Assembly: GCA_937926105.1 (NCBI GenBank) | Contig: CALANS010000175.1 | Span: forward strand, 62,001 to 126,000 | Direction of reading: 5' to 3' | Length of the DNA: 64,000 bases | From: an uncultured Actinomycetes bacterium | GTDB lineage: Bacteria; Actinomycetota; Actinomycetes; Mycobacteriales; Nakamurellaceae | In this document: positions 45,955 through 64,000 of the stretch, piece after piece | Layout: the number at the start of each line of letters is the position of its first letter | Numbering within the stretch: position 1 is the stretch's first letter | Notes under the pieces: generated by a model | Seen by the model: the letters and a program-made list of their open reading frames with translations, nothing else | Told to the model about the DNA's origin: nothing | Database searches by the model: none | Made by a program: the position numbers and the translations under genes

Positions 45955-46316
45955 TCCGGCGAGCCAGACGGTCATGCCGGCGCCCGGGTCCGTCCCGGAC
46001 AATACGTCACAGTGACGTTTTGTCCGGTGTGAGGCGGATGCCGCCGCCCGGGGTGGGTGCCCGGAGGATCGCCCGAGCGAGGTCCGTCGGCGCAAGCCCC
46101 GGTGCGCCCGCCGGCCTTCGTCCGTCACCGGCTGCGCTGCCTCCGTGGGCGCGACAGGTCGATGTTCGGGTGCGCGCGCGGAGGCGCGGCCGTCCTTGGC
46201 TTACCGTCCCGGGCCCGGTGAGGCAGAGTCGTCGGCGCCGACTCAAGTGCCGATTCGGGTGTCGATTCGGGATGGGGCAGATTGGGGTGCCATCGCGGCT
46301 CGCCGTGCCCTGCTGA
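45955..46316. other. Non-coding left flank of dif
   Basis: About 360 bp between osmC and the left attachment site. Holds the hairpin at 45995-46027. The rest codes for no recognisable protein, except that a minus-strand frame from the mobile element reads through 46243-46316. Confidence 0.4.
45995..46027. terminator. Hairpin after osmC
   Basis: CCGGACAATACGTCAC (45995-46010) and GTGACGTTTTGTCCGG (46012-46027) are inverted with one mismatch and one centre base, 40 bp after the osmC stop. Like the palindrome at 6903 it carries a GACAAAACG block in the stem, so both look like one class of terminator. Confidence 0.6.
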
Positions 46317-46809
46317 CGATCCGATAATGTACATCGTCTGGTTTGTCCTTTGTGGCGGCGTCGAGCCACTGGATGATGCGGTGTATCTCGTTCCAGAGGG
46401 ATGCCGGGTTGACGCGGCGGGCGGCTTCCAGCTCGGTCAGGTGGTGGACGGTGACGGCTGCTGCTAGCCATAGGGCGGCGGCGGCGCCGGCTTCCTCTCG
46501 GGCGGCCTGGATGCTGGTCAGGGTGTGGTCTGGGGCCGGCGCGGGTGGTGGTGTCATCCGTTTGTGGTAGCGGAATTGCAGGGCCTCGACGGCGGCGCGT
46601 CTGGTGTCCCACGGCCGTTTGAACGGTGGGGAGGTGTCTTCGGCGGGCAGGTCCGCGTACCAGTCGTTGCGGTGGCTGGCGCCGTTCGGTCGTTTCGAGT
46701 GGACGTGCGCAATGGTGCCGATGGATTGCCCGTCCTGAGTGACCGCGAATGCTCGTAGGGCTGTCGGGTGGTTGCTGGGCGGCTCGATGGGTCGCAGTTC
46801 TGCTGGCAT
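46243..46809 (-). CDS. Element protein reading across attL (copy 1), unknown function
   Basis: 188 residues. The first ~163 are encoded by the element (MPAELRPIEPPSNHPTALRA; DWYADLPAEDTSPPFKRPWD; a helical LTELEAARRVNPASLWNEI) and the rest by host DNA beyond the attachment site. The att core itself is translated as DVHYR; from there this copy ends IVSRARRAAMAPQ and on, unlike copy 2. GGAG ribosome-binding site. No known domain; the AAGAAAALWLAAAVTVHHLTE stretch is mildly hydrophobic. Confidence 0.65.
   Translation of the reverse strand: MPAELRPIEPPSNHPTALRAFAVTQDGQSIGTIAHVHSKRPNGASHRNDWYADLPAEDTSPPFKRPWDTRRAAVEALQFRYHKRMTPPPAPAPDHTLTSIQAAREEAGAAAALWLAAAVTVHHLTELEAARRVNPASLWNEIHRIIQWLDAATKDKPDDVHYRIVSRARRAAMAPQSAPSRIDTRIGT
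46317..46344. other. Left attachment site (attL) of the dif-integrated array
   Basis: Chromosomal XerC-type arm CGATCCGATAA (46317-46327), centre TGTACA (46328-46333), then the element's degenerate XerD-type arm TCGTCTGGTTT. Aligns base for base with the other two att sites across CCGATAATGTACAT. Confidence 0.85.
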
Positions 46810-46851
46810 GGCTTCTCCGGCGTGCTGGGGGGCCCGGTCCCGCTGGGTGGT

Positions 46852-46905
46852 CGCCAGTCCGAGGGCCGGGCCGAAAGCGGAGCGGGCCCGCCCCTCGGAC
46901 TGGCG
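46852..46905. repeat. Large hairpin in the element's divergent intergenic region, copy 1
   Basis: CGCCAGTCCGAGGG (46852-46865) and CCCTCGGACTGGCG (46892-46905) are perfect inverted arms, with GC-rich inner pairing around a GAAAGCGGAGC loop. Candidate single-strand origin, packaging signal or bidirectional control structure. Confidence 0.6.
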
Positions 46906-46926
46906 GGCGCCGTCGGAGCGGGTCCG

Positions 46927-46932
46927 TAGCTT
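46927..46932 (+). promoter_or_regulatory. -10 box of the first zinc-ribbon gene, copy 1 (leaderless)
   Basis: TAGCTT exactly six bases before the GTG, the same box and spacing as at rep. Confidence 0.5.
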
Positions 46933-46938
46933 CGGGGT

Positions 46939-47166
46939 GTGACGGTTGATGCGGTTGCTGGTCCCGGTCCGGCTCCTGCCGGCTCGGGCGTCTGCGCGTC
47001 GTGTGGGGGGAGTAGTTGGTGGGTCTCGGAGCCGGTTCCGTGCGTGGTGGCGGGCGGCCCGGCCGGGTTGAACGCGGTGGTTCGGGGTTGGCGCTGCGCC
47101 GGCTGCGGCCTCGAGTGGTCTGTGATTGAGGTGGTTGGCGATGGTGACCAGACGAGTGAGCGATGA
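46939..47166 (+). CDS. Small zinc-ribbon protein A of the element, copy 1
   Basis: 75 residues with CASCGG (about 19-24) and CAGCGLEWS (about 54-62), a Cys4 ribbon. GTG start preceded by TAGCTT-N6, so probably leaderless. Overlaps the next gene by 26 bp. Could bind nucleic acid; no closer assignment possible. Confidence 0.6.
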   Translation: MTVDAVAGPGPAPAGSGVCASCGGSSWWVSEPVPCVVAGGPAGLNAVVRGWRCAGCGLEWSVIEVVGDGDQTSER

Positions 47167-47332
47167 CTATCCGCTGTATTGGCGCGGCCGGTGGAACCGG
47201 TTGCAGTGCGAGCGGTGCTACTTCGCCGGCCTGCGTCTCTGGCAGACACGCAAGGTGTGCTCGGAGTGTGCGCGACGAATGGCGCTCGGCCGTCCGGCTT
47301 TGGGCCTGTCGCCGTTGCCCGGTCGTGGCTAG
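47141..47332 (+). CDS. Small zinc-finger protein B of the element, copy 1
   Basis: 63 residues: MVTRRVSDDYPLYWRGRWNR, then LQCERCYFAGLR and KVCSECARRMAL, a second Cys4 finger. Starts inside zinc-ribbon gene A and ends 4 bp into the convergent HTH gene. Confidence 0.55.
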   Translation: MVTRRVSDDYPLYWRGRWNRLQCERCYFAGLRLWQTRKVCSECARRMALGRPALGLSPLPGRG

Positions 47333-47580
47333 CCCGTTGCGCCCGATGGCCGGCTGGTAGCGCGGCGTCGGCGGAGCTTGCGCGCTAGGCGCAGCTCGTG
47401 GGCCTGGTCGCGTTCCTCGCCGGTGCCGAACCGCTGTTGGGCGAGCAGGCTCGGGATGCCCAGCGCGCCGGCGATCTCCGTCCAGCTGTCGCCGGCGGCT
47501 CTCGCCTCCCGAACAGCCTGCCGGAGTGCGGCCGCCGCGATGTTGGCGTGCTTGTGAGCTCGGCGTAGTGCGTCGTTCAC
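47329..47580 (-). CDS. Small HTH protein of the element, copy 1
   Basis: 83 residues: VNDALRRAHKHANIAAAALR, then an HTH-like EARAAGDSWTEIAGALGIPSLLAQQRFG and a very basic tail (RLARKLRRRRATSR). The GTG at 47580 has AAGGAGG upstream. Likely a repressor or copy-control protein. Confidence 0.65.
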   Translation of the reverse strand: MNDALRRAHKHANIAAAALRQAVREARAAGDSWTEIAGALGIPSLLAQQRFGTGEERDQAHELRLARKLRRRRATSRPSGATG

Positions 47581-47964
47581 GATGCCTCCTTGGTTGGGTC
47601 CCGCGAGGGGGGCGGATGCCCTCCTCGGCGGGGCACCCGTACCTCCGGCCGCGGGGCCCGCGGTCAAGGCCCGCAGGGTCAGCGCTGCGGGTGGATCCGG
47701 GATGCTCACGGCCGCCCGGCCGGGGTCGGTGGCCGGATTCACCCGGAGGGCTCGGCCCGGAGCGGCCTTGACGGTGGGTCGGCCGGTGGTACGGGACGGC
47801 GAGGTGAGTGCGTCGGCGAGTAGCTACGGATGCCCGGCGGGCGTCCCGCTGCGGCACCGCCGGGCTTGTAACACGGGGGTGCAAACACCAGCAGACGGCT
47901 GGGACCTGCGGAAACGCGAAACGGGGTCCAGGGTCTCGTCGGCTGCTCGGGGTAGTCTCAGGCT
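47581..47964. other. Divergent intergenic region of the element, copy 1
   Basis: 384 bp without a supported gene. Contains the inverted pair GCCCGGCGG (47832-47840) / CCGCCGGGC (47857-47865) and the leaderless promoter of the 142-residue protein. Likely regulatory. The same region recurs at 50836-51219. Confidence 0.5.
47953..47958 (+). promoter_or_regulatory. -10 box of the 142-residue element gene, copy 1 (leaderless)
   Basis: TAGTCT exactly six bases before the ATG; no ribosome-binding site. Confidence 0.5.
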
Positions 47965-48393
47965 ATGACGTCCGAATTGGTGGAGCCGGTCGATTTCCGG
48001 TCGAAGAAGATGCCCACGCGTGATGGGTACGGCATGGCGAGTTCGTTGGCTGGCGCGGCCCGTATCGAGTCGCTCTGGGATGGCATCGAGACTGGGGCTC
48101 GGCGTGCCGCTCTCCAGGTCGTGATGGATCGGGTCGGCTTCTGGCTGGTGTGGAAACTTGAAGGCGGCTTCGACGGTTTGCGCAGGCTGGGCTACTCGGA
48201 CGCCACCATCTACCGCAAGATCAAGGGCTTCCGCGAGAGCTTCGGCGCCCACCCGGATGACTACAGCTTCCCGGGTGTGAGTGTGGATGTTGGCGAGTAC
48301 GCCCGCGCTATTCGGTCCGATGACGTCCGAGTGCCGCTGGTTATCAAGAACGCGGTCAACGGTCCGGCGAGGTTGCGCGGACACACCGGCTGA
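47965..48393 (+). CDS. Putative DNA-binding protein of the element, copy 1
   Basis: 142 residues. RLGYSDATIYRKIKGFRESFGAH near residues 75-97 looks like the recognition helix region of an HTH. The rest is unassigned. Lies immediately before rep in the same direction (39-bp gap), so it may be a regulator or accessory replication factor. Confidence 0.65.
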   Translation: MTSELVEPVDFRSKKMPTRDGYGMASSLAGAARIESLWDGIETGARRAALQVVMDRVGFWLVWKLEGGFDGLRRLGYSDATIYRKIKGFRESFGAHPDDYSFPGVSVDVGEYARAIRSDDVRVPLVIKNAVNGPARLRGHTG

Positions 48394-48420
48394 TTGTCGC
48401 AGAATGTGAGAGTTGCCTGG

Positions 48421-48426
48421 TAGCTT
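48421..48426 (+). promoter_or_regulatory. -10 box of rep, copy 1 (leaderless)
   Basis: TAGCTT exactly six bases before the rep GTG. Confidence 0.5.
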
Positions 48427-48432
48427 TGCCGT

Positions 48433-49575
48433 GTGGACCTACTCGCGGCTTCTGCTAGTAGCAGTGGTGCGCGATCGCGCGAGTTGCCGGCGGGGGCCGG
48501 CGGGGGTTTCCCCTATCTAACAGAAGGGGAAACTTGGCCAAATTGGCCACGGCCCGTGGGCCTGCCGGGGGTGGGGATCGACCGCCTGTCGATGTCGTTC
48601 CCGGTTGCTGAGCACGCGCCGCCGGGTGCCTGGGATAGCCACACGTACCGGTATGAGAGCGGCCAGCACGCGTACTCGAAGCGGGTGCCGGTCTCCGACG
48701 GTGATGGCCCGGCGGTAATGGTCGGCGTGACGACGATCAACGGAAGGCCGTGGGGGAAGGCCGAGTGCAACCCTGCGAGGTTTGCGGACCCGTACGGGTG
48801 CGAGCTGCTCGACCCGCGGATGCTGCCGGCGGCGGTCACGGTGATGTGGCTGGCGGTCGGCGAGCTGGTGCGGCCGGCTGAGTCGTTGGAGCAGGCGCGG
48901 GTAACTCGGTTAGACGTGGCTCGCGATTTCCGGGCGGTCACGTCGCCGGCGCTTTACGTCGAGGGTCTGGGGCCTCTGCGTCGGCCGTGGGCTCGGCGCT
49001 CGTTCACCTATAACGATCCGGGCCGGGGTGACGCGCAAACGCTGTTCGTCGGTTCCGGTGCTGGGGGCGTGCGCTTGTACGACCAGCACCAGGCCTACGC
49101 CGACAAGGGAGCGCCCGAGGGTTCGTTGCGGTGGGAGGCCGAGGTCCGGAAAGGTTGGTTGCAGCGCGCAGGTATTCGTCACGTGACGGATTTGGACCCA
49201 GTGGCCGTGGACAGGCTCGCGCTGGATCGTTGGAAGTGGTCAGCTATGGGCACTGAGGTGACGGGCCCGGTTAACGCCGTTCAGGTTGTACAGCGGGCCA
49301 TGGTTGAGGGTCGTGTGACCCGAGCTGTGGGAGCGAAATTGTTGGGCGAGCTGATGTTGGAGTCGTTTGGGTTCGGCCGTCAGGCCGGGCGGAGCGAACG
49401 CCGTCACCGCGATGTGATGGACGAGCTCGGTGTTACCGCGCCGGCCTTGTGGAACAACGACCTTTCGCGGCAAGCGGTGGGGCGCTTGGACTTTGAGGAG
49501 GGCACCGAGGTTCTGTCGATGGTGGGTGCTCGGTCTCCGTCGTCATCTGGTGAGTTGTCGGCGCTTCCGCGTTAG
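48433..49575 (+). CDS. Rolling-circle replication initiator, gene II/G2P-like (Phage_CRI), copy 1
   Basis: 380 residues. VTRLDVARDF (R159, D161, D165) is the RxDxxxDF signature of filamentous-phage gene II/CRI initiators. VRLYDQHQAYADKG (Y216, Y222, K225) followed by SLRWEAEVRKGWLQRAG (E235, E237) matches their YDK...LRxExxLR region, giving catalytic tyrosine candidates. The first ~25 residues are low-complexity. Its stop codon (TAG, 49573-49575) lies within the XerC-type arm of the junction att site. It should nick and initiate rolling-circle replication of the excised or looped-out element. Confidence 0.8.
   Translation: MDLLAASASSSGARSRELPAGAGGGFPYLTEGETWPNWPRPVGLPGVGIDRLSMSFPVAEHAPPGAWDSHTYRYESGQHAYSKRVPVSDGDGPAVMVGVTTINGRPWGKAECNPARFADPYGCELLDPRMLPAAVTVMWLAVGELVRPAESLEQARVTRLDVARDFRAVTSPALYVEGLGPLRRPWARRSFTYNDPGRGDAQTLFVGSGAGGVRLYDQHQAYADKGAPEGSLRWEAEVRKGWLQRAGIRHVTDLDPVAVDRLALDRWKWSAMGTEVTGPVNAVQVVQRAMVEGRVTRAVGAKLLGELMLESFGFGRQAGRSERRHRDVMDELGVTAPALWNNDLSRQAVGRLDFEEGTEVLSMVGARSPSSSGELSALPR
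48506..48549 (+). other. Candidate double-strand origin inside rep, copy 1
   Basis: GTTTCCCCT (48506-48514) and AGGGGAAAC (48525-48533) flank a ten-base loop ATCTAACAGA. Directly after is a second dyad, TGGCCAA (48535-48541) / TTGGCCA (48543-48549). An AT-rich, doubly palindromic island in GC-rich coding DNA suggests a Rep nick site in the loop. Confidence 0.45.
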
Positions 49576-50064
49576 CCGATAATGTACATCGTCTGGTTTG
49601 TCCTTTGTGGCGGCGTCGAGCCACTGGATGATGCGGTGTATCTCGTTCCAGAGGGATGCCGGGTTGACGCGGCGGGCGGCTTCCAGCTCGGTCAGGTGGT
49701 GGACGGTGACGGCTGCTGCTAGCCATAGGGCGGCGGCGGCGCCGGCTTCCTCTCGGGCGGCCTGGATGCTGGTCAGGGTGTGGTCTGGGGCCGGCGCGGG
49801 TGGTGGTGTCATCCGTTTGTGGTAGCGGAATTGCAGGGCCTCGACGGCGGCGCGTCTGGTGTCCCACGGCCGTTTGAACGGTGGGGAGGTGTCTTCGGCG
49901 GGCAGGTCCGCGTACCAGTCGTTGCGGTGGCTGGCGCCGTTCGGTCGTTTCGAGTGGACGTGCGCAATGGTGCCGATGGATTGCCCGTCCTGAGTGACCG
50001 CGAATGCTCGTAGGGCTGTCGGGTGGTTGCTGGGCGGCTCGATGGGTCGCAGTTCTGCTGGCAT
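49543..50064 (-). CDS. Element protein reading across the junction att site (copy 2)
   Basis: 173 residues, the form the circular element would encode: after DKPDDVHYR it ends LTRKRRQLTR, using antisense of the rep 3' end (overlap of 33 bp). The XerD-type arm of the att site lies inside this coding region, which may be why it has drifted from dif. No known domain. Confidence 0.7.
   Translation of the reverse strand: MPAELRPIEPPSNHPTALRAFAVTQDGQSIGTIAHVHSKRPNGASHRNDWYADLPAEDTSPPFKRPWDTRRAAVEALQFRYHKRMTPPPAPAPDHTLTSIQAAREEAGAAAALWLAAAVTVHHLTELEAARRVNPASLWNEIHRIIQWLDAATKDKPDDVHYRLTRKRRQLTR
49572..49599. other. Junction attachment site (attP-like) between the two copies
   Basis: XerC-type arm TTAGCCGATAA (49572-49582), centre TGTACA (49583-49588), degenerate XerD-type arm TCGTCTGGTTT (49589-49599). 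This is the sequence the circular element would carry. Confidence 0.85.
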
Positions 50065-50106
50065 GGCTTCTCCGGCGTGCTGGGGGGCCCGGTCCCGCTG
50101 GGTGGT

Positions 50107-50160
50107 CGCCAGTCCGAGGGCCGGGCCGAAAGCGGAGCGGGCCCGCCCCTCGGACTGGCG
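50107..50160. repeat. Large hairpin, copy 2
   Basis: Same inverted arms as at 46852-46905, shifted by 3,255 bp. Confidence 0.6.
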
Positions 50161-50181
50161 GGCGCCGTCGGAGCGGGTCCG

Positions 50182-50187
50182 TAGCTT
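50182..50187 (+). promoter_or_regulatory. -10 box of zinc-ribbon gene A, copy 2
   Basis: TAGCTT six bases before the GTG, as in copy 1. Confidence 0.5.
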
Positions 50188-50193
50188 CGGGGT

Positions 50194-50421
50194 GTGACGG
50201 TTGATGCGGTTGCTGGTCCCGGTCCGGCTCCTGCCGGCTCGGGCGTCTGCGCGTCGTGTGGGGGGAGTAGTTGGTGGGTCTCGGAGCCGGTTCCGTGCGT
50301 GGTGGCGGGCGGCCCGGCCGGGTTGAACGCGGTGGTTCGGGGTTGGCGCTGCGCCGGCTGCGGCCTCGAGTGGTCTGTGATTGAGGTGGTTGGCGATGGT
50401 GACCAGACGAGTGAGCGATGA
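50194..50421 (+). CDS. Small zinc-ribbon protein A of the element, copy 2
   Basis: Same 75-residue Cys4-ribbon protein as in copy 1 (CASCGG and CAGCGLEWS), with the same leaderless promoter and the same overlap with gene B. Confidence 0.6.
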   Translation: MTVDAVAGPGPAPAGSGVCASCGGSSWWVSEPVPCVVAGGPAGLNAVVRGWRCAGCGLEWSVIEVVGDGDQTSER

Positions 50422-50587
50422 CTATCCGCTGTATTGGCGCGGCCGGTGGAACCGGTTGCAGTGCGAGCGGTGCTACTTCGCCGGCCTGCGTCTCTGGCAG
50501 ACACGCAAGGTGTGCTCGGAGTGTGCGCGACGAATGGCGCTCGGCCGTCCGGCTTTGGGCCTGTCGCCGTTGCCCGGTCGTGGCTAG
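50396..50587 (+). CDS. Small zinc-finger protein B of the element, copy 2
   Basis: Same 63-residue protein as in copy 1 (CERCYF and CSECARR); overlaps gene A and the convergent HTH gene. Confidence 0.55.
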   Translation: MVTRRVSDDYPLYWRGRWNRLQCERCYFAGLRLWQTRKVCSECARRMALGRPALGLSPLPGRG

Positions 50588-50835
50588 CCCGTTGCGCCCG
50601 ATGGCCGGCTGGTAGCGCGGCGTCGGCGGAGCTTGCGCGCTAGGCGCAGCTCGTGGGCCTGGTCGCGTTCCTCGCCGGTGCCGAACCGCTGTTGGGCGAG
50701 CAGGCTCGGGATGCCCAGCGCGCCGGCGATCTCCGTCCAGCTGTCGCCGGCGGCTCTCGCCTCCCGAACAGCCTGCCGGAGTGCGGCCGCCGCGATGTTG
50801 GCGTGCTTGTGAGCTCGGCGTAGTGCGTCGTTCAC
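50584..50835 (-). CDS. Small HTH protein of the element, copy 2
   Basis: Same 83-residue protein as in copy 1, with WTEIAGALGIPS helix-turn-helix-like segment, basic tail and AAGGAGG ribosome-binding site. Confidence 0.65.
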   Translation of the reverse strand: MNDALRRAHKHANIAAAALRQAVREARAAGDSWTEIAGALGIPSLLAQQRFGTGEERDQAHELRLARKLRRRRATSRPSGATG

Positions 50836-51207
50836 GATGCCTCCTTGGTTGGGTCCCGCGAGGGGGGCGGATGCCCTCCTCGGCGGGGCACCCGTACCTC
50901 CGGCCGCGGGGCCCGCGGTCAAGGCCCGCAGGGTCAGCGCTGCGGGTGGATCCGGGATGCTCACGGCCGCCCGGCCGGGGTCGGTGGCCGGATTCACCCG
51001 GAGGGCTCGGCCCGGAGCGGCCTTGACGGTGGGTCGGCCGGTGGTACGGGACGGCGAGGTGAGTGCGTCGGCGAGTAGCTACGGATGCCCGGCGGGCGTC
51101 CCGCTGCGGCACCGCCGGGCTTGTAACACGGGGGTGCAAACACCAGCAGACGGCTGGGACCTGCGGAAACGCGAAACGGGGTCCAGGGTCTCGTCGGCTG
51201 CTCGGGG

Positions 51208-51213
51208 TAGTCT
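51208..51213 (+). promoter_or_regulatory. -10 box of the 142-residue gene, copy 2
   Basis: TAGTCT six bases before the ATG, as in copy 1. Confidence 0.5.
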
Positions 51214-51219
51214 CAGGCT

Positions 51220-51648
51220 ATGACGTCCGAATTGGTGGAGCCGGTCGATTTCCGGTCGAAGAAGATGCCCACGCGTGATGGGTACGGCATGGCGAGTTCG
51301 TTGGCTGGCGCGGCCCGTATCGAGTCGCTCTGGGATGGCATCGAGACTGGGGCTCGGCGTGCCGCTCTCCAGGTCGTGATGGATCGGGTCGGCTTCTGGC
51401 TGGTGTGGAAACTTGAAGGCGGCTTCGACGGTTTGCGCAGGCTGGGCTACTCGGACGCCACCATCTACCGCAAGATCAAGGGCTTCCGCGAGAGCTTCGG
51501 CGCCCACCCGGATGACTACAGCTTCCCGGGTGTGAGTGTGGATGTTGGCGAGTACGCCCGCGCTATTCGGTCCGATGACGTCCGAGTGCCGCTGGTTATC
51601 AAGAACGCGGTCAACGGTCCGGCGAGGTTGCGCGGACACACCGGCTGA
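51220..51648 (+). CDS. Putative DNA-binding protein of the element, copy 2
   Basis: Same 142-residue HTH-like protein as in copy 1, again directly upstream of rep. The 384-bp region before it (50836-51219) repeats the copy 1 intergenic region. Confidence 0.65.
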   Translation: MTSELVEPVDFRSKKMPTRDGYGMASSLAGAARIESLWDGIETGARRAALQVVMDRVGFWLVWKLEGGFDGLRRLGYSDATIYRKIKGFRESFGAHPDDYSFPGVSVDVGEYARAIRSDDVRVPLVIKNAVNGPARLRGHTG

Positions 51649-51675
51649 TTGTCGCAGAATGTGAGAGTTGCCTGG

Positions 51676-51681
51676 TAGCTT
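51676..51681 (+). promoter_or_regulatory. -10 box of rep, copy 2
   Basis: TAGCTT six bases before the rep GTG, as in copy 1. Confidence 0.5.
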
Positions 51682-51687
51682 TGCCGT

Positions 51688-52830
51688 GTGGACCTACTCG
51701 CGGCTTCTGCTAGTAGCAGTGGTGCGCGATCGCGCGAGTTGCCGGCGGGGGCCGGCGGGGGTTTCCCCTATCTAACAGAAGGGGAAACTTGGCCAAATTG
51801 GCCACGGCCCGTGGGCCTGCCGGGGGTGGGGATCGACCGCCTGTCGATGTCGTTCCCGGTTGCTGAGCACGCGCCGCCGGGTGCCTGGGATAGCCACACG
51901 TACCGGTATGAGAGCGGCCAGCACGCGTACTCGAAGCGGGTGCCGGTCTCCGACGGTGATGGCCCGGCGGTAATGGTCGGCGTGACGACGATCAACGGAA
52001 GGCCGTGGGGGAAGGCCGAGTGCAACCCTGCGAGGTTTGCGGACCCGTACGGGTGCGAGCTGCTCGACCCGCGGATGCTGCCGGCGGCGGTCACGGTGAT
52101 GTGGCTGGCGGTCGGCGAGCTGGTGCGGCCGGCTGAGTCGTTGGAGCAGGCGCGGGTAACTCGGTTAGACGTGGCTCGCGATTTCCGGGCGGTCACGTCG
52201 CCGGCGCTTTACGTCGAGGGTCTGGGGCCTCTGCGTCGGCCGTGGGCTCGGCGCTCGTTCACCTATAACGATCCGGGCCGGGGTGACGCGCAAACGCTGT
52301 TCGTCGGTTCCGGTGCTGGGGGCGTGCGCTTGTACGACCAGCACCAGGCCTACGCCGACAAGGGAGCGCCCGAGGGTTCGTTGCGGTGGGAGGCCGAGGT
52401 CCGGAAAGGTTGGTTGCAGCGCGCAGGTATTCGTCACGTGACGGATTTGGACCCAGTGGCCGTGGACAGGCTCGCGCTGGATCGTTGGAAGTGGTCAGCT
52501 ATGGGCACTGAGGTGACGGGCCCGGTTAACGCCGTTCAGGTTGTACAGCGGGCCATGGTTGAGGGTCGTGTGACCCGAGCTGTGGGAGCGAAATTGTTGG
52601 GCGAGCTGATGTTGGAGTCGTTTGGGTTCGGCCGTCAGGCCGGGCGGAGCGAACGCCGTCACCGCGATGTGATGGACGAGCTCGGTGTTACCGCGCCGGC
52701 CTTGTGGAACAACGACCTTTCGCGGCAAGCGGTGGGGCGCTTGGACTTTGAGGAGGGCACCGAGGTTCTGTCGATGGTGGGTGCTCGGTCTCCGTCGTCA
52801 TCTGGTGAGTTGTCGGCGCTTCCGCGTTAG
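51688..52830 (+). CDS. Rolling-circle replication initiator, gene II/G2P-like, copy 2
   Basis: Same 380-residue Rep as in copy 1 (RLDVARDF; YDQHQAYADK; LRWEAEVRKG). Its stop codon sits in the XerC-type arm of the right-hand dif, so insertion does not alter the protein. Confidence 0.8.
   Translation: MDLLAASASSSGARSRELPAGAGGGFPYLTEGETWPNWPRPVGLPGVGIDRLSMSFPVAEHAPPGAWDSHTYRYESGQHAYSKRVPVSDGDGPAVMVGVTTINGRPWGKAECNPARFADPYGCELLDPRMLPAAVTVMWLAVGELVRPAESLEQARVTRLDVARDFRAVTSPALYVEGLGPLRRPWARRSFTYNDPGRGDAQTLFVGSGAGGVRLYDQHQAYADKGAPEGSLRWEAEVRKGWLQRAGIRHVTDLDPVAVDRLALDRWKWSAMGTEVTGPVNAVQVVQRAMVEGRVTRAVGAKLLGELMLESFGFGRQAGRSERRHRDVMDELGVTAPALWNNDLSRQAVGRLDFEEGTEVLSMVGARSPSSSGELSALPR
51761..51804 (+). 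other. Candidate double-strand origin inside rep, copy 2
   Basis: Same pair of palindromes as at 48506-48549. Two origins in tandem would let Rep nick at one and terminate at the next, releasing a single-unit circle without excision. Confidence 0.45.
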
Positions 52831-52854
52831 CCGATAATGTACATTATGTCATTC
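52827..52854. other. dif site (attR of the array; chromosome dimer resolution site)
   Basis: XerC-type arm TTAGCCGATAA (52827-52837), centre TGTACA (52838-52843), XerD-type arm TTATGTCATTC (52844-52854). Matches E. coli dif at ATAATGTA and TTATGT, and matches the actinobacterial pattern CCGATAAT..ACATTATGTCA. A full-quality dif is thus preserved at one end of the array. Confidence 0.88.
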
Positions 52855-53052
52855 CATGCGCAGCGATCATGCCTACCCCGGCACGTCCGTGAAGCACCTC
52901 CTCCCCAGCTCGTGGCCGAGTCGTCCGCTCGGGTGCGGACCCGGCGTGCTCCGGGAGTCTCCGGCCGCCCAGCACCGATGAGTGCTTGACAGTCTGCTTG
53001 TTTTTTGCAAGTGTCAGTCCGACCGCACCCCAACCCGAAATGGAGACTCATC

Positions 53053-53487
53053 ATGGGCCCCATGTTCGTCAACCTGCCGGTGACCGATCTGGACCGCGCC
53101 AAGGCGTTTTACACAGCTGTCGGCTTTCGGATCAACCCGGTCTTCACCGATCACAATGCCGCGTGCGTCGTGGTCGATGAGGGCCACAACTACTTCATGA
53201 TCTTGGTCCGCGAGTTCTTCCAGACGTTCACCACACTCCCGATCGGAGACCCGACCTCGTCCGTGTCGTGCGCGACCGCCATCTTCCTGGACAGTCGAGA
53301 GGCAGTGGACGCGACCATGTCCGACGGCCTTGCGGCCGGCGGCTCGGAGGCCCAGCCGCCGACGGATCTCGGCTTCATGTACCAGAGGCAACTGACCGAT
53401 CCGGACGGCAACATCCTGGAGTTCGGCTACATGGACCCCGTTGCCGCCGAGCAAGGGCCGGAGGCGTTCATGGCCCAGCAGGCCTGA
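53053..53487 (+). CDS. VOC family protein next to dif
   Basis: 144 residues: MGPMFVNLPVTDLDRAKAFYTAVGF and RQLTDPDGNILEFGYMDP form the paired VOC modules, of the PhnB/YaeR-like lactoylglutathione-lyase-related type. ATG at 53053 with GGAG upstream. A TTGACA (52986-52991) and a CTTG-N7-CAAG dyad (52997-53011) precede it, probably promoter and regulator site for the following HxlR protein. Confidence 0.88.
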   Translation: MGPMFVNLPVTDLDRAKAFYTAVGFRINPVFTDHNAACVVVDEGHNYFMILVREFFQTFTTLPIGDPTSSVSCATAIFLDSREAVDATMSDGLAAGGSEAQPPTDLGFMYQRQLTDPDGNILEFGYMDPVAAEQGPEAFMAQQA

Positions 53488-53503
53488 GGGCAGTCGGCAG
53501 TCG

Positions 53504-54145
53504 GTGGGCGCGCGTGAGTACGGGCAGTACTGCGGTGTCACGCGCGCCCTGGAGCTGGTGGGCGAGCGCTGGGCACTGCTGATCGTCCGAGACCTGCTCG
53601 TCGGGCCGCGGCGCTACGGGGAACTCGCGGCGGGTCTCCCCCGCATCCCCAGCAACGTTCTGGCGGCGCGACTTAAGGAATTGCAGGCCGCCGGCATCAT
53701 CCGCCGCGTACCACGTTCGCGCATCATCGTCTACGAATTGACTCCATACGGCCACGAACTCGAACCCATCGTGCTGGCCCTCGGCGCCTGGGGTTTCAAG
53801 GCAATGGGCGCACCGCGAGAGGACCAGGTCATCACCGCGGACTCGATGACCATGGCGCTGCGCACGGCGTTCCAACCGCTCGTAGCGGCAACATTGCCTA
53901 CCACCGCCTACGCGGCTCGCTTGGGGCCCGCCGACCTGTTCATTCGAGTGGACCATGCCGTGCTGGACGTGGGGCGCGGCGACGGGCCGGCCGACCTGAC
54001 GTTCGCTGCGGGGCCGAGGATTCGCGACCTCATTTCCGGGCACCTCGACGCTGATCGCGCGATCGCGACGGGCGTTGTCGAAGTCCTGGGCGGTCGGGTC
54101 GAGCTCCTGGACCGATTCGCGAATACGTTCCACCTGGCAGCCTGA
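53504..54145 (+). CDS. HxlR-family regulator with SCP2-like C-terminal domain
   Basis: 213 residues. HxlR wHTH with its usual cysteine: YGQYCGVTRALELVGERWALLIVRDLLVGPRRYGELAAGLPRIPSNVLAARLKELQAAGIIRR. The C-terminal half (ADLFIRVDHAVLDVGRGDGPADLTFAA, LISGHLDADRAIATGVVEVLG) resembles the SCP2 sterol-carrier fold found in some regulators. GTG start 17 bp after the VOC stop, so the two are one operon. Confidence 0.85.
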   Translation: MGAREYGQYCGVTRALELVGERWALLIVRDLLVGPRRYGELAAGLPRIPSNVLAARLKELQAAGIIRRVPRSRIIVYELTPYGHELEPIVLALGAWGFKAMGAPREDQVITADSMTMALRTAFQPLVAATLPTTAYAARLGPADLFIRVDHAVLDVGRGDGPADLTFAAGPRIRDLISGHLDADRAIATGVVEVLGGRVELLDRFANTFHLAA

Positions 54146-54243
54146 TCCGGCCTGGGAGTGGGGCCGACCGGTAGGCCGGCGGAGCTCCCGTCCGGTCGCT
54201 CCCCGAAAGGACGCCATTCAGCACACCCGGGCCGTGGCTCGGC

Positions 54244-55125
54244 TCACGCGCTGGGTAACGCGGCAGCCAGCTTCCGGTGCAGCCCATCCACCTGATCGGC
54301 GGTCAGCGGTCCTGGCAGGAGGATGTGTTCGATCGCCTTCTTGACCCAGAGCACTCGGACCTGCCGCGTCACGAAGTCTCCGCCGATGAGCGGCCAGTCT
54401 GCCTCGATGAAGACCAGCATGCCCGCCAGCGGGACGTCGTGACCGATGATGGCCTGGACCAGGCCCAACTGCTTGTGCATGCCTTCGACGAGCGGGTTGC
54501 ACCGGCGGCCGCCGACCATGAGGGTTTCGGTTCGGGGTCGGAGTAGACCACCCTCGACGCGCAACGTCGGCCGTCCCTGGTACCGCTTGGCGTCCGGCAC
54601 ATACACGCCCGATCCACTGATCGCGATATGGTCGATATTGGCGCGGCTCTTCGGTATTCGCCGATCGTGCAGGACGCGAACACCATCGGCCGCCAGGTCG
54701 TTCAGGCGGCTGCCCAGTACCTCCTCTCCCCTCGCCCCGGTGCGCCACGCCGTGGTGCTTTGTGGGTCGTCCGACAGCGCCAGGATCAGCCCTCCCAGCT
54801 TGGGGTGACGGGCACGGATTCGCTGTTCTCGCTGGGCTGCGCGGCGTTCGAACTCACGCCGAGCAGAAGCGCCGGCGGTGCCGATCTCGACCGGGGTGGG
54901 CGGTGCCGATGAAGGTCCACTCGGGTGCGGCTCCCCGGCAGTGCGCGACTCCGTGGACACCGTCTGGCCGGCCCGCAGCACCCCTTCGCCGCACGGCAGG
55001 CAGATCACGTTGCGCGCCGACTTGTCGTAGATCGCCGCATCGCCCTGACCGATGCAGGTCCCGCATTCGCGACACACGCCCGCGTAGCGCAGCCGCATTC
55101 GCTTCCATGGCGCCGGTGTTGTCAC
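54244..55125 (-). CDS. NERD-domain protein with N-terminal zinc ribbon
   Basis: 293 residues. A four-Cys ribbon (CRECGTCIGQGD and VICLPCGEG, about 18-50), an Arg-rich helix, then the NERD nuclease-related domain: TGARGEEVLGSRLNDL, VLHDRRIPKSRANIDHIAISGSGVYVPDAKRYQG with the D-x(n)-DxK-like triad. The GTG has GGAGGG upstream. Often linked to DNA processing; biochemical activity is unproven. Confidence 0.85.
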   Translation of the reverse strand: MTTPAPWKRMRLRYAGVCRECGTCIGQGDAAIYDKSARNVICLPCGEGVLRAGQTVSTESRTAGEPHPSGPSSAPPTPVEIGTAGASARREFERRAAQREQRIRARHPKLGGLILALSDDPQSTTAWRTGARGEEVLGSRLNDLAADGVRVLHDRRIPKSRANIDHIAISGSGVYVPDAKRYQGRPTLRVEGGLLRPRTETLMVGGRRCNPLVEGMHKQLGLVQAIIGHDVPLAGMLVFIEADWPLIGGDFVTRQVRVLWVKKAIEHILLPGPLTADQVDGLHRKLAAALPSA

Positions 55126-55279
55126 GAACCCTCCACGAAGGATGGCAAAACGGACTGCCAGTGTTGCTCATGGTGTCCCAGATGTCACGCGATGCGCGGG
55201 TCGTTCGTGCTCGAACTGGTCGAAATCGCGACGGGCCCGAGTCACGTGTGGCAGACGCCCCGGAAGCTGTCCGCTGCTG

Positions 55280-55678
55280 TCAGACCGAAGCGCCGGCGAA
55301 GATGACTGCGCACGGCGGGTTCGACCGAGACAACCGGCCATCCGTCGTGACCAGCGGACACTGTCGTGCCTCTGCCAAGGCAACGTAGAGCCCGTCCAAA
55401 ATGCGGATGCTGTCCCGCAAGGTAAATGCTCGCATCAGGTGGTCCCGGTTCACCGGAACGACTTCTTGGACCAGCGCGGCGGCGTCCTCGAGTGCTCGCC
55501 CGGCTTCGGCGGCATCCAACTCCCCCGCTCGCAGCAGGTGGATCACCGCGGAACTCACCTCGGCCAGCTGATGTCCCGGCGCGACGATGTCCTCCCGGTC
55601 GATGTGCGCCAGCACCGCCTCCTTGGCGCCACGATCGGCGACGACGTCGACCAACGCCGAGGCATCGAGGACGATCAC
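55280..55678 (-). CDS. vapC: PIN-domain toxin VapC
   Basis: 132 residues. Acidic PIN residues in MIVLDASALVDVV, the Glu of LAEVSSAVIHLL, and DGLYVALAEARQCPLVTTDGRL. Ribonuclease toxin in the characterised family. GTG start overlaps the antitoxin stop by 4 bp. Confidence 0.92.
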   Translation of the reverse strand: MIVLDASALVDVVADRGAKEAVLAHIDREDIVAPGHQLAEVSSAVIHLLRAGELDAAEAGRALEDAAALVQEVVPVNRDHLMRAFTLRDSIRILDGLYVALAEARQCPLVTTDGRLSRSNPPCAVIFAGASV

Positions 55679-55893
55679 GCTTCGAACTCCTCGTCGACCG
55701 CCGTCATGATCGCCTCGGTCGTCAGCGCAGACGTGCGGATCGGCCGCTTGCGTGCTGCAGCGACCCAGGCCGCGTTTCGATCATTGCTCAGGGCGGCGAC
55801 GAAGGCGCGCTGCGCGACCTGCGACATGGGCAGCGCCCGGCGCTTGATCTCATCGTAGAGGGCGTCCGGGATGTAAATGCTCACCTTAGGCAT
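55675..55893 (-). CDS. vapB: VapB-type ribbon-helix-helix antitoxin
   Basis: 72 residues: MPKVSIYIPDALYDEIKRRA is a ribbon-helix-helix N-terminus, the rest a toxin-binding tail. TACACT lies six bases before the ATG, so transcription is probably leaderless. The direct repeat TACCCCCAG (55893-55901 and 55904-55912) covers promoter and start and is a likely VapBC autoregulatory site. Confidence 0.9.
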   Translation of the reverse strand: MPKVSIYIPDALYDEIKRRALPMSQVAQRAFVAALSNDRNAAWVAAARKRPIRTSALTTEAIMTAVDEEFEA

Positions 55894-55899
55894 ACCCCC

Positions 55900-55905
55900 A
55901 GTGTA
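55900..55905 (-). promoter_or_regulatory. -10 box of vapB (leaderless) within a direct repeat
   Basis: Minus-strand TACACT exactly six bases before the ATG, overlapped by two TACCCCCAG repeats 11 bp apart. Confidence 0.5.
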
Positions 55906-56015
55906 CCCCCAGCACCCGCCGATACCGACAGCCACGGCCGATCCCTTGCCGCCTTGTACATTCGACCCGGAACGGACCACATCCACGACCAGCGCGCGAC
56001 CAGGAATGAGGCGCC

Positions 56016-58433
<2,418 letters not shown>

Positions 58434-58488
58434 CGCCGCACCGGACCCGACGGCCGCGTCCCGGACTCCCGCGGGGAGGATGTCACCC

Positions 58489-59349
58489 ATGGGCGAGCCC
58501 CCGACGGAGTCCTGGCAGTGGGACCCCACGCTGTACCAGGGCAGCGCCGGCCACTACGTTCGCGGCCGGGTGCCCTACCCGACCGGCCTGATCGATCTGT
58601 TGGTCGGTGAACTCGGACTGGACGGGCGCGGCCGGCTGCTCGATATCGGCTGCGGGCCCGGAACACTGACCCTGCCGCTGGCGGGCCACGTGGAACACGT
58701 CGTCGGTGCGGACGCCGATGCCGGCATGTTGGCCGAAGCCCGGCGCCGCGCCACCGCCGTCGGCATCCGAAATGCCACCTGGCTGAACCGGCAGGCGGAG
58801 GACCTGTCACCCGATCTCGGACCGTTTGGCGCCGTGACCATGGCGCAGTCCTTCCACTGGATGGATCGACGTCGCGTCGCCGCCCTGCTGCACCAGCTGG
58901 TGCAGCCAGGCGGCGCGCTCGGCTACGTTCACGCGACCACTCATGAAGGCATGGACGGCACGCTGCCGCTGGCCAATCCCCGCCCGCCGCGACGGGAGAT
59001 GGACGCGCTGATCGCCGCATACCTGGGGCCCCGGCGCCGCGCGGGTCGCGGTCACCGCCCATTGGACCGGATCAGCGAGGAAGATCGGCACCGGACCGAG
59101 GCCGCGATGTTCACCGCGGCGGGATGGTCCGGACCGACAGCTCACGTCGTTCCCGGCTGGACCGTCGATCGCACCGCCGACGAGGTGGTGGCCAGTGTGT
59201 TCTCGCTCTCCTATGCGACGCCGCATCTCTTCGGCGATCGCCTGGCCGACTTCGAGCGGGAGCTGCGGGCGATGCTCCGACGGGCCAGCCCGGACGGCCT
59301 GTTCAGCGAACGGATGCGGGAGATCGCCGTCCAGGTGTGGCGCCGGTAA
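58489..59349 (+). CDS. SAM-dependent methyltransferase (UbiE-like)
   Basis: 286 residues. YQGSAGHYVRGRVPYPTGL precedes motif I LLDIGCGPGTLTLPLAGHV, acidic VVGADADAGMLAEA and AVTMAQSFHWMD. Substrate unknown. ATG at 58489 has GGGGAGGA about 9 bp upstream; the ATG at 58480 lies too close to that site. Confidence 0.88.
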   Translation: MGEPPTESWQWDPTLYQGSAGHYVRGRVPYPTGLIDLLVGELGLDGRGRLLDIGCGPGTLTLPLAGHVEHVVGADADAGMLAEARRRATAVGIRNATWLNRQAEDLSPDLGPFGAVTMAQSFHWMDRRRVAALLHQLVQPGGALGYVHATTHEGMDGTLPLANPRPPRREMDALIAAYLGPRRRAGRGHRPLDRISEEDRHRTEAAMFTAAGWSGPTAHVVPGWTVDRTADEVVASVFSLSYATPHLFGDRLADFERELRAMLRRASPDGLFSERMREIAVQVWRR

Positions 59350-59399
59350 CCAGCTGCCGATGCGATGGCGGCGCACCGGAGGTGAACGAACCGATCGGA

Positions 59400-60203
59400 C
59401 TACGGGATCCCGCGGTCGATCAGGCCGCCCAGCGCCGCCCGGCCGGACTCGTCACCGGAGATGGTCACGCTGCCGCCGCGGGTCCACGCCCAGAGCGCCA
59501 GGTCCTGCGCCGGCCCGGTGACCGTCACCGTCGGCGTTGCGCTGGGATCGGCGCGGGTGCCGTGCGGCTCGTCGAAGGCCTTGCCGGACTGCGGCCCCGT
59601 GCCCGCCCAGTGGCCGACGTCGACCAGCCACTGCTGCCCGGTGTCGGAGGCGACCAGCTCTACTGTGGCGAGCGATTCCCGCACCGCCCACTCCGGCATC
59701 CAGCCCCACATCACGTCGACGCAATGATCGACGGCGCCGGCCGCCACCGCGGGCGAGATGGACGAGAGGCCCACGCCGGCGGTCAGTTCCGCGTCCACCC
59801 GGTGCATGGTCGCCTCGTAGGTCTGCATGCGCCGGGTGAACCCGACGGTCTGGTCGGCCTCCCACCACGTCCAGCGGGGATCGGCGTCGTCCAGCGAGGA
59901 GAGCTGCTCGAGCAGATCGGCGGTGGCCCGTGCTCGCACCGGCAGCATGCCGGCCACCGTCTCGGGTCGCTCGGGCTTGCTCTGCTCGGCGGCCTCCGCC
60001 TGGTCGTCGGTGCGTAGGTCGTCGCCCAGGATCTTCGCCCAGAAGGCGTGTACCTCGGTCAGGTGCCACAGCAGGTCAGCGGCGTTCCAATCGGGGCAGG
60101 TGGGGCAGCGGGCCTCCGGTGGTGCGTCGGCCAGGACGTCGGCGAAGCGCTGGGCCTCCGCCCGGATGACGGCGATGCGGTCGATGGTCTCGGTGTTCGT
60201 CAT
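59400..60203 (-). CDS. Mycothiol-dependent maleylpyruvate isomerase-type (DinB-fold) protein
   Basis: 267 residues. The metal-binding MDMPI_N domain has LLWHLTEVHAFWAKIL and QTYEATMHRVDAEL, with GVDxC-like DHCVDVMWGWM; a C-terminal MDMPI_C-like domain follows (VTVTGPAQDLALWAWTRGG). The family includes mycothiol-dependent enzymes. Divergent from the WYL regulator, with a shared operator. Confidence 0.88.
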   Translation of the reverse strand: MTNTETIDRIAVIRAEAQRFADVLADAPPEARCPTCPDWNAADLLWHLTEVHAFWAKILGDDLRTDDQAEAAEQSKPERPETVAGMLPVRARATADLLEQLSSLDDADPRWTWWEADQTVGFTRRMQTYEATMHRVDAELTAGVGLSSISPAVAAGAVDHCVDVMWGWMPEWAVRESLATVELVASDTGQQWLVDVGHWAGTGPQSGKAFDEPHGTRADPSATPTVTVTGPAQDLALWAWTRGGSVTISGDESGRAALGGLIDRGIP

Positions 60204-60224
60204 GCGGCCCACCGTAGAGGCAAT

Positions 60225-60252
60225 CCAGGACAGACCACTTCCTGGTTACGAT
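60225..60252. promoter_or_regulatory. Operator and promoter of the WYL regulator
   Basis: Perfect dyad CCAGGA-N9-TCCTGG (60225-60245), directly followed by a TACGAT -10 box (60247-60252). It lies 22 bp from the divergent MDMPI gene and so can repress both. Confidence 0.6.
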
Positions 60253-60259
60253 GAATCTC

Positions 60260-61279
60260 ATGGCGCCGGCCGAGATCAGCCCCACGGCCCGGGCGCTGCT
60301 TGCGCTGGAGACGCTGCAGCAGCGGCCCGGTGTCACCGCCGATGAACTGGCCGTCCGGCTCGGCGTCACCGACCGTGCCGCGCGGCGGTACGTCGCGATC
60401 CTGCGCGAGGCGGGCATCGAAGTGCAGTCCACCCCCGGCCGGTACGGCGGCTACCGGATCGGTCGGGGACTTCGGCTGCCGCCCATGGTGTTCACCGCCG
60501 CCGAGGCCTTAGGGCTGGTGATGGCGGTGCTGGACGGTCAGCACGCCGCCGACGATCCGACCGAACCGGTGGGTGCGGCGCTGGGCAAATTGATCCGCGC
60601 GCTGCCCGACGGGGTGGCTGTCCCGGCCCGCACCCTGCGCGAGCACGCGCTGGCCGCGCCGCGTCGCGACACCGGGCGCCCCGATCCCGACGTCACCAGC
60701 GCACTCGTCGGCGCGGTGGCCGCCCGTCGCCGCGCCCGCGTGGGCTACCGCAGCGCCTCCGGACACGCGGCAGACCTGGAGGTCGACCCCTGGGCTGTCG
60801 TGGTGCGCTACGGCCGCTGGTATCTGCTGTGCTTCGCGCACGGGCCGGGTGAGGTGCGGACGCTGCGCATCGACCGGGTCACCTCGGTCGAGGTGCTTGC
60901 CGGCTCGTTCCGGCCGCCGGCGGACCTGGATCCGGCGGCGTCCCTGGAGGAGCATCTGGGCAGCGGCTGGGCGCTGCGCACCGAGGTCATTTTCGACGCG
61001 CCGCTGGCGGAGGTGCAGCCGTGGGTGTCGGCCACCATGGGCCGGTTGACGCCGTCCGACGACGGTGCCCGGTGCGTGCTGCTCGGCAGCACCCGCAATC
61101 CGGCGATGTACGCCGGCGAGCGGCTGGCCGCGGTGCCGTTCGAGTTTCATGTGGTGGGCGGGGACGAGCTACGGCAGGCGGTGACGGAGGTGGCCGAGCG
61201 GCTGGCACGGGCCGCACAGACCGACCACGATCCGGTAACACGGCCTCCGGCGACGACCCCGCGTCCCAGGGGGAGGTAG
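60260..61279 (+). CDS. YafY-type HTH_11/WYL regulator
   Basis: 339 residues. HTH ALLALETLQQRPGVTADELAVRLGVTDRAARRYVAILREAG, then the WYL domain (VDPWAVVVRYGRWYLLCFAHGPGEVRTLRIDRV) and WCX tail. ATG at 60260, seven bases after TACGAT, suits a leaderless transcript; an ATG at 60251 lies in the -10 box itself. Likely controls the divergent gene. Confidence 0.9.
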   Translation: MAPAEISPTARALLALETLQQRPGVTADELAVRLGVTDRAARRYVAILREAGIEVQSTPGRYGGYRIGRGLRLPPMVFTAAEALGLVMAVLDGQHAADDPTEPVGAALGKLIRALPDGVAVPARTLREHALAAPRRDTGRPDPDVTSALVGAVAARRRARVGYRSASGHAADLEVDPWAVVVRYGRWYLLCFAHGPGEVRTLRIDRVTSVEVLAGSFRPPADLDPAASLEEHLGSGWALRTEVIFDAPLAEVQPWVSATMGRLTPSDDGARCVLLGSTRNPAMYAGERLAAVPFEFHVVGGDELRQAVTEVAERLARAAQTDHDPVTRPPATTPRPRGR

Positions 61280-61330
61280 CCGACGTGGTGCGCGAGGTCT
61301 GGTTGTGTGCGCCCGTCGCCGAGCCGTGAC

Positions 61331-61648
61331 TCAGCCCCCGGAGATCGACCCCACCACCAGGAATGGCTCGGTGCCCGCCGCGACCGGCCCCGGCACCGGC
61401 GTGTCCACCGGGTCGTGGGACAGGTCCTGCTCGCAGGCGAAGAACCGCACGAACGGGCGTCGCGGTCCGCCGCCGTGATCCCGGATGGCGCCGCGGAGCA
61501 CCGGGAACCGATCCTCGATCGCGTCCAGCACGGCACCGATCGTCACCTGCTGGGCTGCGCCGGCGGCCGGGACATCCACCCGCACCTCGCCGGCCACCCT
61601 GGCCAGGCTGCGCAGGTGGCCGGGCAGGATCACCCGAATCTCCGTCAC
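61331..61648 (-). CDS. MoaD/ThiS-like ubiquitin-fold sulfur carrier
   Basis: 105 residues: VTEIRVILPGHLRSLARV, TIGAVLDAIEDRFPVLRGAI, and a terminal SISGG, the double glycine at which such carriers are adenylated or thiocarboxylated. The GTG at 61648 has AAAGG 8 bp upstream. Lies just after the BNR-repeat gene; the pair recurs in bacterial genomes, with unknown function. Confidence 0.85.
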   Translation of the reverse strand: MTEIRVILPGHLRSLARVAGEVRVDVPAAGAAQQVTIGAVLDAIEDRFPVLRGAIRDHGGGPRRPFVRFFACEQDLSHDPVDTPVPGPVAAGTEPFLVVGSISGG

Positions 61649-61672
61649 CGATGGCACCTTTCGTCACCGCCG

Positions 61673-62785: not shown

Positions 62786-63024
62786 GGTGTTCTCCCTCGG
62801 AGTAGGCCACCGGCAACGGAATCGGCCGGGCTCTGCCGCACGTTTCGGACCAGCCAACCGGAATATTCACGGGCTGTCCATAGGGTGCCCGGAATACACC
62901 GCGATCGAACATTCGTCGGTCGACGCGGACCGGAATGACGGCGCATCGCAGCGGTGTGGCCGCGAACTCGCGCCGACGCCTTCGGCGAGGCCCGCGCCGG
63001 CGACGGTTGCTATCGTGACGAACC
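62786..63024. other. Divergent intergenic region
   Basis: 239 bp between the BNR gene and the Thr/Ser-rich membrane protein. A TATCGT box at 63011-63016 lies eight bases before the downstream GTG, consistent with a nearly leaderless transcript. Nothing else recognised. Confidence 0.35.
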
Positions 63025-63837: not shown

Positions 63838-63838
63838 T

Positions 63839-64000
63839 GTGGCCCCGGTGTCCCGACATGGCCGGCCGGCCACCGTTCGCTCGCACTGGATCCTGCTGGT
63901 TCTGTGCCTACTGCTGCTCGGCCTGCTGCTCGCGGTGTACTCGCTGACCGACGGCAAACCAGGCGAAGTGGTCGCGGCCGGCCCGGCAACTCCGGACGCC
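63839..64000 (+). CDS. Membrane-anchored protein, N-terminus only (cut by window)
   Basis: 54 codons from a GTG just after the previous stop: VAPVSRHGRPATVRSHWILL begins the protein and a membrane anchor (LVLCLLLLGLLLAVYSL) follows, then an extracytoplasmic start. The rest lies beyond the window, so the family cannot be named. Confidence 0.55.
   Translation, partial: MAPVSRHGRPATVRSHWILLVLCLLLLGLLLAVYSLTDGKPGEVVAAGPATPDA

Follow-up and report, generated by a model that had tools for sequence, protein, structure and literature searches.

The stretch of DNA analysed here, called the window throughout, comprises 64,000 nucleotides of contig CALANS010000175.1 from an uncultured actinobacterium of the Nakamurellaceae. 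It carries a head-to-tail pair of 3,255-bp units that is confirmed to sit exactly in an actinobacterial dif; the features of this tandem element are listed in Table 1. A sequence-only reading of the window had described two units without differences, delimited by a dif core at 46321, 49576 and 52831 and inserted exactly at dif, and this description was borne out. A base-by-base comparison of the two units revealed 0 differences across 3,255 positions, and exact copies of the 14-base core CCGATAATGTACAT are present at precisely those three places and nowhere else in the 64 kb. When up to three mismatches are allowed, the core is found at 6 places in the window, as compared with a mean of 1.02 and a maximum of 5 in shuffled sequences. 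The 20-base dif pattern CCGATAATNNACATTATGTC matches the window only at 52831-52850, with 0 matches in 100 shuffles, and a whole dif is thus present at the right boundary only. Comparison of the unit ends with the flanks gave 0 shared bases left of the core and just 14, i.e. CCGATAATGTACAT, at the right.

The XerD arm scores 4/11 in the attP of the element versus 8/11 in attR, while the TGTACA centre is the same in both. The element brings the XerC arm and the centre and no full XerD arm, and the host keeps a whole dif on the right. Exact insertion at dif, a dif-like attP and a whole dif regenerated at attR are the features of integrative mobile elements exploiting Xer (IMEXs). An IMEX of the VGJ-phi type, in which the centre is non-homologous to dif on the XerD side, was rejected in view of the shared TGTACA, and an attachment site of the CTX-phi type was rejected in view of the single core per unit. 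The likeness to CTX-phi that the sequence-only reading had proposed should thus be replaced by one to TLC-phi, with a single attP per unit in which the XerC arm and the centre are kept. Joining the two flanks gives a dif-like 28-mer, of which 21 of 28 positions agree with the suggested dif of Frankia alni; according to the sections of PMC3025954 used here, no actinobacterial dif had been experimentally confirmed at that time. The sign of the GC skew flips at the array (+0.027 over 1-46320, -0.036 over 52845-64000). Stretches of the flanks are 69-86% identical to contigs L001, L046 and L047 of a Nakamurella sp. metagenome-assembled genome (MAG) and to G802, a genome from the family of that MAG. 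Judging by this synteny, the host is likely a Nakamurella-like actinobacterium.

Table 1 Features of the tandem element and its boundaries, given as positions in the window.
Feature	Position	Second copy	Strand	Description
attL	46317..46344		+	Chromosomal XerC arm CGATCCGATAA, centre TGTACA, degenerate XerD arm TCGTCTGGTTT from the element
Unit 1	46321..49575		+	3,255 bp
Unit-unit junction, predicted attP	49572..49599		+	TTAGCCGATAA TGTACA TCGTCTGGTTT
Unit 2	49576..52830		+	3,255 bp, same as unit 1
attR	52827..52854		+	Sole complete dif of the window: element XerC arm TTAGCCGATAA, TGTACA, chromosomal XerD arm TTATGTCATTC
Rep	48433..49575	51688-52830	+	Longest open reading frame, 380 aa
Predicted double-strand origin, nick hairpin TTTCCCCTATCTAACAGAAGGGGAAA	48507..48532	51762-51787	+	From sequence and fold
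Second inverted repeat TGGCCAAATTGGCCA	48535..48549	51790-51804	+	From sequence and fold
ORF142	47965..48393	51220-51648	+	Small conserved protein
ORF137	47329..47742	50584-50997	-	Helix-turn-helix DNA-binding protein, phrog_686, E 5.1e-06
Conserved stretch	47585..47797	50840-51052		74% identical to Nakamurella L001 391-602
ORF173	49543..50064		-	Runs over the unit junction into the end of Rep; 47% homologue beside attL in L047
ORF75	46939..47166	50194-50421	+	CxxC pairs, without family match
ORF63	47141..47332	50396-50587	+	CxxC pairs, without family match

Eight open reading frames (ORFs) of the unit were compared with Pfam and PHROGs, and six of them also with NCBIfam, and no recombinase, Zot or coat family was recognised among them. 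The claim that the element has no recombinase of its own is thus in agreement with our scan, and the same Pfam library does detect integrases in contigs L002, L069 and L071. For membrane-type proteins, we looked for ORFs of at least 30 amino acids with a 19-residue mean hydropathy of at least 1.6. None of the 51 ORFs of the circularised unit reaches this value (the highest is 1.54), and a coat protein encoded within the unit is therefore unlikely. By the same measure, 5 ORFs were found in the viral contig L003, 6 in L047 (1-1700) and 4 in L001 (1-2130), some of which are encoded opposite to the likely genes and probably spurious. The unit, accordingly, has its own replication module without recognised morphogenesis or coat genes, as do satellites of the TLC-phi type, and the Zot/pI ATPase and coat gene that mark Inoviridae were not recognised among its ORFs.

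The Rep stop codon lies inside the XerC arm of the unit-unit junction. The database entry of the window's own Rep (P0001, 339 aa) starts at the GTG at 48556, and the nick hairpin is thus in the leader. Rep had been taken for a relative of the gene II protein of filamentous phages, a kinship that we rejected, as it models instead as an initiator of the pT181 Rep_trans type. The structural model of Rep has the Rep_trans fold, and Rep_trans (PF02486) was matched at E<=1 by 16 of 61 aligned Reps (best 1.4e-04), whereas Phage_CRI, the gene II family, was matched by 2 of 61, one of which gave the best single E-value (3.5e-05); the window Rep itself matches neither family. Tyr216 of Rep is invariant across the 61 aligned rows, and the identity of Rep to the VIA rows of pT181-family and MOBT proteins is 12-15%. 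No match was found for Rep in a phage database or for the unit DNA in a plasmid database, and a search of PDB sequences with the Rep profile yielded nothing useful.

The sections of PMC9371924 used here place the nick site of Rep_trans origins at CT/AA in the loop of a GC-rich hairpin, with an inverted repeat directly downstream. Both features are found in the unit by sequence and fold: Rep is predicted to nick TTTCCCCTATCTAACAGAAGGGGAAA at TCT/AA, and TGGCCAAATTGGCCA, just downstream, is positioned as the bind site in Rep_trans origins. This 59-nt origin stretch folds much better than its shuffles (z -5.3). The nick hairpin lies upstream of the probable Rep start, and the same 26 bases are present in L001 despite a Rep identity of 56%; variants are found in L003 and L002. 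Among 69 database relatives of Rep, considered as protein sequences, 35 carry traces of the hairpin motif near the N-terminus, of which 22 are LTEGE-like and 13 SNRR/SNRK-like, i.e. two reading frames of one DNA motif. The other 34 show neither trace, many of them beginning downstream or being fragments. That the motif is kept in two frames points to a role that lies in the DNA. The hairpin pattern was found in two viral contigs, L003 and L089. The latter, an IMG/VR fragment that is tailed-phage-like by eye, has a same-type hairpin TCTAACAG at 1994-2013 and no Rep of this family, and the hairpin alone is thus not diagnostic.

As for the remaining genes, ORF137 is a putative repressor, judging by its helix-turn-helix (HTH) match. 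The conserved stretch overlaps the longest ORF137 frame in its 5' part, includes sequence upstream of it and is a candidate regulatory, single-stranded-DNA-origin or packaging region. ORF142 is a candidate regulator or Xer activator, by its position and small size alone. Its structural model has a mean pLDDT (per-residue confidence) of 62, residues 51-100 being helical and better modelled (block means 78-90), and it is too weak for a structure search. The first-copy frame of ORF173 (46243-46809) extends into the chromosome. A protein database search returned only the window's own ORF173, yet a homologue is present in L047. Contig counts in the database are 7 for the ORF142 protein and 4 for ORF173, with a longest contig of 656,438 bases, and 2 for Rep (longest 85,541); the higher counts of the first two possibly reflect further assemblies that carry the element.

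Relatives of Rep at E<=1e-3 were found in 5 of 394 genomes of the class of the Nakamurella MAG, in 6 of 395 of the class of L002 and, within the family of the MAG, in 1 of 17 genomes, namely the MAG itself. L012, L013, L014 and L015 gave weak Rep matches. Distant relatives were observed in other actinobacterial genomes (L002 3665-4507, L069 4005-6146 and L071 4475-5629), close to tyrosine integrases and, in L069, to a serine recombinase as well; this type of Rep thus also serves elements that carry an integrase.

The sequence-only reading had suggested searching for the same Rep at dif in related genomes, and such a relative was found in the dif of the Nakamurella MAG. Its contig L001 (C130) shows, in order, a minus-strand ORF, the hairpin, Rep (56%), a small membrane ORF, a whole dif and chromosome. 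Contig L047 (C191) shows chromosome, a core whose XerD arm is divergent (2/11), the ORF173 homologue (47%), a protein whose residues 13-44 weakly match a single-stranded-DNA-binding family (phrog_2866, 4.9e-04) and small membrane ORFs, including one that looks coat-like by eye. In G802, the chromosomal flanks seen in L047 and L001 adjoin each other at a single dif without insert, which is the matching empty site, and the simplest reading of the two contigs is thus that they hold opposite ends of a single filamentous-phage-like element integrated in dif. This element lies in dif in the same orientation as that of the window. Its right end repeats some 32 bases from the left flank of the host dif, as if host DNA adjacent to the XerC arm had been taken up into the Nakamurella attP; with the core included, the 46 bases at L001 2084-2129 are 93% identical to L047 at about 1658-1704. 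The same MAG has a third dif core, at L046 3072-3085, whose right flank is syntenic with the window, which suggests a mixed bin or a rearranged terminus.

A further relative is the IMG/VR contig L003, with a Rep that is 52% identical, an HTH protein of phrog_686 (1.4e-03) and a Zot-type ATPase (phrog_20922, 1.9e-35; phrog_197, 9.3e-09; Pfam Zot below its cut-off). A single-sequence scan of viral contigs with Rep gave no match, and the Rep alignment retrieved L003 only. The dif core was not found in L003, and its ATPase, as a query, retrieved only itself from the viral contigs and nothing from the Nakamurella MAG. With related Reps both in the dif-integrated Nakamurella element and near a Zot-type ATPase, a kinship with filamentous phages is supported. 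The description of the unit as inovirus-like, on the other hand, stands only in part: it has a phage-like relative at the Nakamurella dif, but its scanned ORFs include no recognised virion gene, and it would thus be a satellite or plasmid-like.

For a wider view, the core was surveyed in the 394 genomes of the class, the Nakamurella MAG (G001) included, and 113 of them carry it. More than one core was seen, among the genomes listed, in G001, G118 and G348. In the family of the MAG, 12 of 17 genomes have the core; the 11 besides the MAG have one each, 10 of them with a TATGT XerD arm. The core in G792 lacks a dif arm, and a partner site was not found near it. In G118 (L048 5773-10875), an element is bounded by two dif cores at a distance of 5,102 bp, the XerD arm being divergent at one end (3/11) and fuller at the other (8/11). 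Its genes include a CAP12/Pycsar TIR-domain protein (PF10137, 4.2e-33), HTH_3 and DUF2188, and no recombinase or Rep was recognised in the 7 ORFs scanned. By these genes it is possibly a defence-carrying IMEX; as a helper it was dropped, no Rep or virion gene being recognised.

We consider it probable that the tandem element is a TLC-phi-like satellite, which would use the XerC and XerD of its host for integration and excision and a related filamentous phage for travel. It most likely exploits the host XerCD, which would recombine the attP laid out above with dif. Every insertion would leave a whole dif at the right, such that the dimer resolution of the host would be spared and further copies could stack. 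A Rep_trans-type Rep would open the hairpin loop, and origin-to-origin replication within the array would yield single-stranded DNA of exactly unit length; a circle could also arise through Xer recombination of two junctions. As the unit has no recognised gene for a coat, adsorption or extrusion, a helper would be needed, and the unit may be packaged by one like the Nakamurella element; the two have in common the nick hairpin and the conserved stretch beside the HTH gene.

Several points that weigh against this explanation need to be considered. The VIA score of Rep for 4cij (9.6) is no better than a tie with those of TBP-fold (TATA-binding-protein) proteins (9.2), its Foldseek superposition is poor (TM 0.26), and the window Rep has no passing match in Pfam, PHROGs or NCBIfam. 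In the Nakamurella MAG, the element is split over two contigs of a fragmentary assembly with its middle missing, and contig-end searches for a link between L001 and L047 gave only the contigs themselves and short chance matches. Zot was not found in this MAG, where the best Pfam match (E 0.025) is PhoH-like by eye. The coat-like ORF of L047 was judged by eye and has no credible family match, and the ORF of L001 that is located where the unit has ORF137 gave no HTH match and aligns with residues 11-56 of ORF137 only. The hydropathy cut-off was chosen by us. Neither ORF142 nor ORF137 matches an Xer activator family of the XafT type in Pfam, PHROGs or NCBIfam, and no helper was found within the window. 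In addition, the Reps of L002, L069 and L071 lie at most about 4 kb from tyrosine integrases (PF00589, E 2.4e-30, 1.4e-17 and 1.2e-24), and this Rep type is therefore not phage-specific, which leaves room for a plasmid-like element. Such an element would be a Xer-integrating rolling-circle plasmid with a Rep_trans initiator and no phage helper, spreading by transformation or by conjugative mobilisation, the latter because Rep_trans proteins and MOBT relaxases are related. The setting of the distant Reps, the Rep_trans-type model, the resemblance of the hairpin to MOBT nick sites and the lack of a recognised virion gene in the unit are all consistent with it. However, the nearest Reps with a visible setting are of the phage type (L001 with L047, and L003), and the ORF173 homologue, the hairpin and the conserved stretch are common to the unit and a dif-integrated phage-like element, and we therefore regard a plasmid as rather unlikely.

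The two-copy state is dependent on the assembly, and a single integrated copy with free circles or concatemers might have been assembled as two. The perfect identity of the units would be expected in that case, and only the assembly itself speaks against it; circles would still mean a mobile element, with the copy number alone affected. We do not expect this to be so, at about the same level of doubt as for the plasmid. It is improbable that the array is a decayed or deleted filamentous prophage, whose structural module is gone and whose remainder is stuck at dif. While the layout does resemble the two Nakamurella element ends minus the membrane-ORF block, the copies are identical over 3,255 bases with their main frames open. 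Moreover, an ORF142 homologue (P0075) and a Rep homologue (P0010) come from one source, where the longest contig for each is 3,401 bases, and may thus lie on one small contig. Least probable is the integration of folded single-stranded DNA as in CTX-phi. A tandem array with a predicted rolling-circle Rep would suit it, but CTX-phi uses two inverted attP sites, according to the relevant part of PMC4246890, whereas the unit has one exact core, and the sole inverted near-match (3 mismatches) overlaps that core.

XafT is the XerD activator that TLC-phi itself encodes, RS1 is a satellite with a replication and regulation block common to its helper, and Propionibacterium phage B5 is an actinobacterial inovirus. 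The pT181-family plasmids and MOBT elements are not known to be integrated at dif. When the satellite explanation is compared with these systems, the actinobacterial inoviruses, as represented by L003, share a related Rep and the origin hairpin and differ in the Zot-type ATPase and in that no dif core was found. The pT181-family plasmids and the MOBT relaxases of Tn916, ICEBs1 and ICESt3 share the Rep_trans-type model, the CT/AA GC-rich hairpin and the downstream inverted repeat, with a Rep sequence that is distant. RS1 and CTX-phi also form arrays at dif, but CTX-phi integrates as folded DNA through paired sites, unlike the single attP here. In the parts of PMC4246890 and PMC5357621 used here, TLC-phi of Vibrio cholerae is a dif-located satellite with its own replication and no morphogenesis genes, whose attP is dif-like in the XerC arm and centre and divergent in the XerD arm, and whose integration begins with XerD. 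The element thus resembles TLC-phi in its dif location in one or more copies, its replication module, its lack of recognised morphogenesis genes and its attP class. It differs in its actinobacterial host, in its Rep and origin, which are of the pT181 type by model, and in that no activator like XafT (mentioned in the part of PMC9765430 used) was recognised. The gonococcal genomic island (57-kb) and EludIMEX-1 (29-kb) are, in the relevant part of PMC5357621, IMEXs that are highly dif-like on the XerC side, the gonococcal one also having a divergent XerD side; both are islands rather than minimal Rep units.

The Xer-exploiting elements named in the parts of PMC5357621, PMC4246890 and PMC9765430 used here are proteobacterial, and we found no account of a dif-integrated element or filamentous satellite of Actinobacteria in the open-licence PMC literature, which is the literature covered. 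The element is thus probably an IMEX satellite of a kind known from elsewhere, in a host group for which none was found described in that literature. Tentatively, and with considerable doubt, one may imagine actinobacterial dif-based filamentous phages, with pT181-type origins and hijacked XerCD, that together with 3-kb satellites form an independent Gram-positive counterpart of TLC-phi and CTX-phi. Such satellites would have shed the genes for virions, would retain the origin and control region of the helper and would use ORF142 as their own Xer activator, and their arrays would always return a working dif. The hairpin and Rep together provide a tag to locate further members. As a minimal recombinase-less element at an actinobacterial dif, the unit would offer a compact system in which to test XerCD control outside proteobacteria, and it suggests that satellite parasitism of filamentous phages reaches Actinobacteria.

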